A DNA stretch of 64,000 nt. Origin: Terebella lapidaria. Taxonomy: Eukaryota > Annelida > Polychaeta > Terebellida > Terebellidae. Location: the NCBI GenBank assembly GCA_949152475.1, contig OX424568.1:25829667-25893666 (forward strand). Reading direction: 5' to 3'. The stretch's first letter is position 1. Every line of letters begins with the position of its first letter. Below the pieces are notes generated by a model, which saw only the letters and a list, made by a program, of their open reading frames with translations, was not told the origin of the DNA and did no database searches. Below are positions 50,130 through 51,855 of the stretch, piece after piece. A program made the position numbers and the translations under genes.

Positions 50130-50142
50130 GGGTCACTTGTTT

Positions 50143-51850
50143 CACAGTGCTTACACAGATTAAGGTACCGCGCGGTACCTTAATCAAAGATGGCGGAAGG
50201 TAAGTTATGCTTCGACCTTTCATCGGCGATTTCTAGCATATACATGAGAAGTGCGTGTATATTTTTGTGGTTTCTGAGAGGGAGTTACAACATATACACT
50301 GTGGATAAGTTACAAGAGATGTTCTAGTGGCATTCGCGAGTAATTTGAGGCAGAAGAAATCGGCTTGATTACGGTAGCACGCAGAGCTGAGCGGCCAGTG
50401 ATTACGGTACCACGCGTAAAAGATTGTGGTACCACATCAGAAAAATGTGTGTACTTTCGAACATGAATGCATCTTGGTGGAATATTAATAGAGTAAGGAG
50501 AGCATATATTTTCCGTTTTCAGCACATTGGAAAAACACTACCTGAATTATAATATACACTGTTATTATATTGAAGCCGGGATTCAATCAATTTTTGGGAA
50601 TCTGCTGATATTGGCTAGGGGATTCTTGTAAGGCAACGTTTCTTGCATGAACGCCTATATCCAACCATACTGACCTCCCCCCCCCCTCCCTTAAACACGC
50701 TCAACATTTATCATATCGTAGCTGACTGTGTGATTGTTTACGTTTGCGATTTACATTATATTCAAAGTAATACTTGTTTTCTAATTCCTGTCATACATGT
50801 GTATGAATTACCCAATTTTATTCCATATTCTGCCTTGTACCAATCTCTAGCCCAGAATGCCGACGGTGATGTGTTAGTTAATGTGTTCATCACGTTTTGT
50901 TCCATCACAGATATGTTGTGAATAAATAAGATTTTGTTATTTACAGCCCAGTTATGAATAGATAAGTTTTTGTTATCTGTTTTTATTTTCCCCTAAACAT
51001 CCGGTGAACCAAGGACCAGAAATCAAATGTCACATCACTGTATCTGATGCTATACAAAGTCTCAGCCGACAAGAAAGTTCTTATATCCAATAAGATATGT
51101 AGAGAAATGTTTTGGGTATCTCCTGCAGTATTGAAAGGAAGTCATTCCCCCGTCCCGTTTTTTGTACAACAAGATAGGCACGCTTGAACACCGAAGTGAA
51201 GCTCTCGTCATATACCCGGTCATAATAATGAGATATTCTGATGATATTTCATCATTTTCCAAACATTCGGGTCCACTCTGGGATGCCAAACGTTTGAATC
51301 TAATACACCTGTCATTGACATCTATCAAGCATTTGTGGCCCTGTATAAGTCGATCAATTATAATATACTTGATCAATTATATACTGTACTATCAAACTGT
51401 ACAGACTTTCATAGTAGTTCTCCTGTTTGGTCACACAGAATACGCCACCGAACGCTGAATTCTTGGTCTTGATGCTGATACAGTCTGTATGACTGTGTGT
51501 CACAAAAATAACACCTCTGTATCGAAAAAAAACATTAAATGGGTAAATTGTATAGTTGTGGTACCGTAATCATCGATGCAGGGTCTGTTCGTGGTACCGT
51601 AATCCACCTCACGCGGTACCGTAATCAAGCCGATTCCTTCTCCCTCAAATTACTCGCGACTGCCACTCTAACATCTCTTGTAACTTATCCACAGTGTATA
51701 TGTTGTAACACCCTATCAGAAACCACGAAAATAAACACGCAGTTCTCATGTATATGGTAGAAATCGCCGATAAAAGGTCGAAGCATAACCTACTTTCCGC
51801 CATCTTTGATTAAGGTACCGCGCGGTACCTTAATCTGTGTAAGCACTGTG
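50143..51850. mobile_element. Transib/RAG-type TIR element, non-autonomous
   Basis: Both ends start CACAGTGCTTACACAGATTA in inverted orientation, and similarity runs for about 290 bp (50143-50440 against 51555-51850). TGTTT flanks both sides (50138-50142, 51851-51855): an exact 5-bp target duplication. Family knowledge: Transib and ProtoRAG transposons make 5-bp duplications and their TIRs start with a CACWRTG-type heptamer, close to the RAG signal CACAGTG. No 12- or 23-bp-spaced A-rich nonamer is visible. The TIRs hold a motif GATTA(A/C)GGTACC several times and a YY1-like AAGATGGCGG. The 1.1-kb middle has no credible protein. Confidence 0.7.
50157..50184. repeat. Perfect palindrome in the left TIR (partner in right TIR)
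   Basis: GATTAAGGTACCGC and its reverse complement meet head to head; the same palindrome occurs near 51810-51836 in the right TIR. It could extrude as a hairpin or bind a dimer. Confidence 0.9.
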
Positions 51851-51855
51851 TGTTT

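Follow-up and report, generated by a model that had tools for sequence, protein, structure and literature searches.

The 64,000-nucleotide stretch of DNA analysed here (the window) contains a transposable element of 1,708 bp (50143-51850) that carries CACAGTG at each end in inverted orientation and is bordered directly outside both ends by an exact, unstranded TGTTT (50138-50142 on the left and 51851-51855 on the right). Both features had been claimed by a sequence-only reading of this DNA and were borne out when the window was re-read. The long terminal inverted repeats (TIRs) that it described are also present, although slightly shorter than its estimate of about 290 bp, the inverted arms matching over 239 bp ungapped at 93% or over 272 bp gapped at 89%. 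The left TIR (50143-50414, forward strand) begins CACAGTGCTTACACA, the right TIR (51590-51850, reverse strand) ends ...GTAAGCACTGTG, and the internal region (50415-51589, unstranded) has no recognised gene, the longest open stretch in the element being 107 aa. No second family copy was found within the 64-kb window by blastn (E ≤ 1e-3).

Each TIR has the same layout of the heptamer, 8 bp, a 28-bp palindrome and then AAGATGGC. The unstranded palindrome (GATTAAGGTACCGC/GCGGTACCTTAATC) is perfect at 50158-50185, has a second copy at 51808-51835, and folds as a single-strand hairpin (z = -3.7), none of 200 shuffles being as good. It is followed by the block AAAGATGGC (50186-50194, forward strand; second block at 51799-51807, reverse strand), whose core AAGATGGC we call YY1-type on the basis of the YY1 motif as given in PMC7481187. 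Our comparison of 52 distinct termini, of which five come from one tandem array (L035) and are not independent, showed a perfect palindrome in 44 and the core in 46; all 52 share the start of the left TIR, which had served to select them and is thus not independent of the selection. Both TIRs have subterminal repeats of the GATTACGGTACCACG type at their inner edges, two on the left within 50367-50414 (50367-50381 and 50400-50414, forward strand) and three on the right within 51558-51626 (51558-51572, 51590-51604 and 51612-51626, reverse strand).

The terminal 21-mer, allowing up to two mismatches, occurs at 219 places (119 forward, 100 reverse) in the 761.6-Mb genome, searched in 438 contigs, whereas the reversed pattern used as a control gave 0 and 1 matches, so that chance was rejected as the source of these ends. 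The best 100 of the 219 places were listed and all 100 are exact; the family comprises roughly 100 copies. Exact 5-bp duplications lie directly outside CACAGTG in 21 of the 25 two-ended copies inspected, that is, in 16 of the 20 with the best-matching ends (window copy included) and in all five of the long end pairs picked for length (2.9, 3.8, 3.8, 5.6 and 14.1 kb), which were read at their ends only. The other four include two that agree over 4 bp (L033, L038) and two that are mismatched (L031, L042). These counts leave out L048, a single family end in 10 kb, and take the outer end for L034 and L043 and the inner pair for L039, where other pairings represent tandem or nested ends. At 27% GC the 21 duplications are rich in AT; T is the last base in 14 of them and A the first in 11. 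Over the range of 2-11 bp tested, the longest duplication common to the flanks was 5 bp in every pair. The sequence-only reading had proposed searching for further TIR copies and aligning their flanks, and had named duplications of 8 or 3 bp and borders lying inside or outside CACAGTG as findings that would speak against it; none occurred among the copies inspected, which had been found by similarity to this end.

A hAT element with 8-bp duplications is ruled out by flanks that share at most 5 bp in the pairs tested, and to that extent the earlier dismissal of hAT was right. It did not cover the hAT5 group, which also makes 5-bp duplications (PMC12730594, citing Kapitonov and Jurka, 2007), so that excluding the 8-bp type leaves other hATs and makes hAT5 the main rival. 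On this explanation the C-A-N-N-G ends and the subterminal repeats would be hAT features, and the window element does carry repeated subterminal motifs; hAT transposases are also common in this genome, with at least 149 PF05699 matches (150 of the 273 candidates scored). None of these 149 matches lies between the listed family ends, the nearest being 29.7 kb away among the ends listed, and the third base of the family border is C, whereas the hAT end consensus YARNG has A or G there. We consider a hAT5 affiliation unlikely.

Empty sites, which had likewise been proposed as a check, were sought by joining the flanks of 19 insertions minus one duplication and comparing them with the sequence gathered in the analysis. 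A match spanning the junction was found for seven of the 19 insertions, and three of these are clean paralogous empty sites with the 5-mer present once and an ungapped junction (L039 in L050, L045 in L011 and L050 in L030). The junction matches of L038 and L035 have one base changed in the 5-mer, that of L049 has a gap within it, and the junction rows shown for L040 are its own flanks only; the remaining 12 insertions had no junction match in the sequence gathered. At L039:7441-9700 a family member sits in the TIR region of another member, providing a clean empty-site control.

Identities, counted over aligned ungapped positions, range from 96.4 to 99.9% among nine copies of the commonest type and from 94.7 to 96.0% among four copies of the window's type. 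L049 and L050 are 99.87% identical, while L040 and L041, which lie on separate contigs and have unlike duplications, reach 100% identity over 1,977 bp. Since identical copies occupy unrelated sites, movement has been recent, and the data point to its having been repeated. The suggestion of a non-autonomous family that may be, or may recently have been, active thus agrees with the copies, the empty sites and the identities: this is a real, recently active non-autonomous family.

No transposase was recognised in the family copies read, and Pfam gave no match above its cut-offs for any of eight open stretches taken from four copies (the window copy, L029, L033 and L044). The commonest type holds antisense pieces that resemble LINE reverse transcriptase by eye, with no Pfam match. 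A member of 14,064 bp with an ATTAT duplication (G000:C15:17604481-17618544; L054, L055, L064-L069), was read at its ends and in six 300-bp samples. These hold the commonest non-autonomous type near the right end (L069, 83-87% identical), a repeat that is widespread (L067) and, in L065, coding sequence that resembles HECT (Pfam E = 0.089, below the cut-off) and has only two other genome matches, possibly a gene capture or a nested insertion; the samples L064, L066 and L068 could be assigned to nothing. As a candidate autonomous copy this element was dropped, given the content of its samples. Tandem arrangements of family ends also occur. At G000:C2:49211782-49228430 (partly L035) a family end lies within a tandem array of units of about 1.66 kb, 11 of them in step, and has thus become a satellite; single ends stand in tandem at G000:C6:21381228 and 21382357 (L057, L058) with the same flank AATTGGGAACAGC, in L034, and in L043:301-934, where the left end forms a 333-bp repeat.

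The same genome carries RAG1-like genes. PF12940 (RAG1) matched 18 genome places, in six of which the frame is open for at least 466 aa. The copy on contig C7 (L051:244-3372, G000:C7; with L052 and L053) is an intact RAG1-like gene of 1,042 aa whose protein finds its closest solved relative in lancelet RAG1L 6b40 (593 bits), compared with 274-289 bits for vertebrate RAG1 and 27 bits for HzTransib. It holds the stretches DGADGMGD, GIDATHAD and SSEGNEAGNK, which we take to be the surroundings of the catalytic D, D and E, and its C-terminus CSKCYAYGHNKRTC fits the Cx2Cx3GHx4C zinc motif described in PMC7204232. Relative to C7, the RAG1L core is 99% identical on C9 and C3, 98% identical on C1 (open frame of 682 aa) and 99% identical on C14, where about 53 residues are missing, while the C2 copy is broken by stops. 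Upstream of RAG1L, identity among the C7, C9, C14 and C3 copies is about 99%, which marks a recently active RAGL element. An open stretch of 144 aa in this upstream part (L052:785-1216), with no Pfam match, is possibly a further exon or gene. A Pfam search for RAG2 gave no match, its controls being equally silent. Mostly broken RAG1-like copies of roughly 33-74% identity on C1, C4, C5, C6 and C12, one of them still with open frames (C1:81375670-81377620), belong to older RAGL lineages that this genome also holds.

The 5' end of the resident RAGL element is CACATAGAAACGTCC; the point at which similarity stops agrees to within 2 bp among the C9, C14, C3, C1 and C2 copies, and a less similar piece on C1 (79%) begins within 6 bp of this end. 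The 15-mer CACATAGAAACGTCC occurs at exactly six genome places, in every case as the 5' end of a copy that carries RAG1L. No inverted match that could mark the 3' end was found near the copies at up to one mismatch. CACATAGAAACGTCC and the family's CACAGTGCTTACACA agree over the first four bases (CACA) and then diverge, and membership of the family in the resident RAGL family is rejected as far as the 5' end goes. Against the protostome RAGL end consensus CACTWMCAAACKTYKBB given in PMC7204232, the RAGL 5' end agrees at 13 of 17 positions and the family end at five.

It is conceivable that the resident RAGL transposase moves the family in trans despite this differing terminus, since open and in several cases nearly identical RAG1L frames are at hand, both kinds of end begin with CACA, and 5-bp duplications are the RAGL value (PMC7204232). 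We regard this as quite improbable, the two ends differing from base 5 onwards as the consensus scores reflect. Among the family ends listed (the best 100 of 219, 75 of 75 and 11 further), the one nearest to a RAG1L match is 56.6 kb from it. RAG1L showed no similarity above chance between family TIRs in the window and L001-L050 (three matches only, E 2.4 to 9), its matches lying elsewhere, and among the ends listed no RAG1/Transib-type transposase was found in an element with family ends. The block AAGATGGC is absent from both strands of the first 700 bp of the C7 RAGL copy.

A Transib source was sought with a probe of two motifs, which matches HzTransib (E = 5.8e-39) and is therefore sound, although it would miss strongly divergent Transibs. 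It gave no genome match at E ≤ 10, with one candidate scored and no positive-control genome, and two scans of the genome contigs for Transib relatives found none. The earlier attribution to a Transib- or RAG-like family is supported only in part: the 5-bp duplications and the CACAGTG borders accord with it, but the RAGL 5' end differs and the Transib probe has no match. Most animal genomes lack autonomous Transibs and the others have only a few, according to the authors' replies in PMC4411706, so a missing Transib source is not strange. A survey of mollusc genomes reports a single Transib element (PMC10294476), which would count against a Transib affiliation in a molluscan host only. A TIR transposon lineage as yet undescribed, with a transposase of its own that makes 5-bp staggers, would accord with the failure to identify a transposase and with a layout of long palindrome and GGTACC repeats that is unlike the TIRs in the literature consulted. 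The border and the duplication are, however, already those of a known clade, so that such a lineage is not needed, and we think it very improbable. Duplications of 5 bp are given for Transib, RAG and RAGL alike (PMC7204232), and lineages with CA..TG ends are grouped as CMCT, with 2-5 bp duplications (PMC12730594).

The family is probably best explained as non-autonomous and of the RAG/Transib kind, depending for its movement on a source in trans that is lost or has escaped detection. In this model a trans-acting DDE transposase would recognise CACAGTG and the TIR sequence next to it and cleave at the heptamer's 5' C; integration into AT-rich DNA through a cut staggered by 5 bp would then leave the 5-bp duplication. 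The enzyme may come from an element of Transib-like or divergent RAG-like type that has been lost, is missing from the assembly or has diverged too far for the probes, and the AAGATGGC block, like the palindrome and the GGTACC repeats, would be a putative protein-binding site. The CACAGTG borders with 5-bp duplications, the identity of the heptamer with that of the RSS and the presence of RAG-type elements in the genome make the RAG/Transib kind likely. What counts against it is that no transposase was recognised between the TIRs, that the Transib probe found no match and that the RAGL end differs; the AT-rich duplications, the four of 25 copies without an exact duplication and the lack of a nonamer count further against it (ACAAAAACC is absent from both strands of the window copy, which therefore has no 12/23 arrangement). 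It is also conceivable, though in our view unlikely, that ends pairing CACAGTG with a distal YY1-type block are cut, or recently were, by a RAG-like recombinase other than that of the resident RAGL element. Were that true, two RAG-type cut-and-paste systems with different signals would share one genome, and the vertebrate heptamer would serve one of the two.

Our search of the literature on RAGL, RAG1L MITEs, CACAGTG with 5-bp duplications and non-autonomous Transib recognised, in titles and the openings of abstracts, no description of the present family. Elements of this kind are known, since non-autonomous RAGL has already been described from the oyster P. imbricata and from several deuterostomes (PMC7204232), and as a transposon family alone this one is ordinary. 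About a hundred copies, some of them very young, that bear the exact RSS heptamer in a genome with an intact RAG1-like gene and close copies of it nevertheless form a testable natural set. They raise the question of which ends each RAG-type enzyme cuts and which bases beyond CAC determine this, a question that bears on the origin of the V(D)J split signal.

Compared with known systems, the family shares CAC-initial heptamer-like ends and 5-bp duplications with Transib elements and their non-autonomous derivatives, but differs in its AT-rich targets (RAG and Transib favour GC-rich ones), in a very long TIR with a perfect palindrome and in the lack of a detected Transib transposase. The RAGL transposons, both the protostome RAGL of Martin et al. 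(2020) and ProtoRAG, likewise make 5-bp duplications. Protostome RAGL has AAA at positions 8-10, after the heptamer (PMC7204232), whereas the family end has CTT. The lancelet ProtoRAG TIR consists of the heptamer CACTATG, in place of the family's CACAGTG, and TR5 (GCCATCTTG), which overlaps a YY1 site and lies 27 or 31 bp away (PMC7481187, PMC8289069); the GCCATCTT-type block of the family TIR recalls TR5 at 36 bp from the heptamer. AAAGATGGC is the reverse complement of GCCATCTTT and agrees with eight of nine TR5 letters, so the block probably stands on the opposite strand to TR5, assuming that TR5 is written on the heptamer strand. This likeness is suggestive only, because unrelated elements commonly have YY1 sites in their promoters. 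The ends also agree with the RSS of vertebrate V(D)J recombination in the heptamer, as the sequence-only reading had proposed: the RSS heptamer quoted in PMC8289069 and PMC7481187 is CACAGTG, identical to that of the family.
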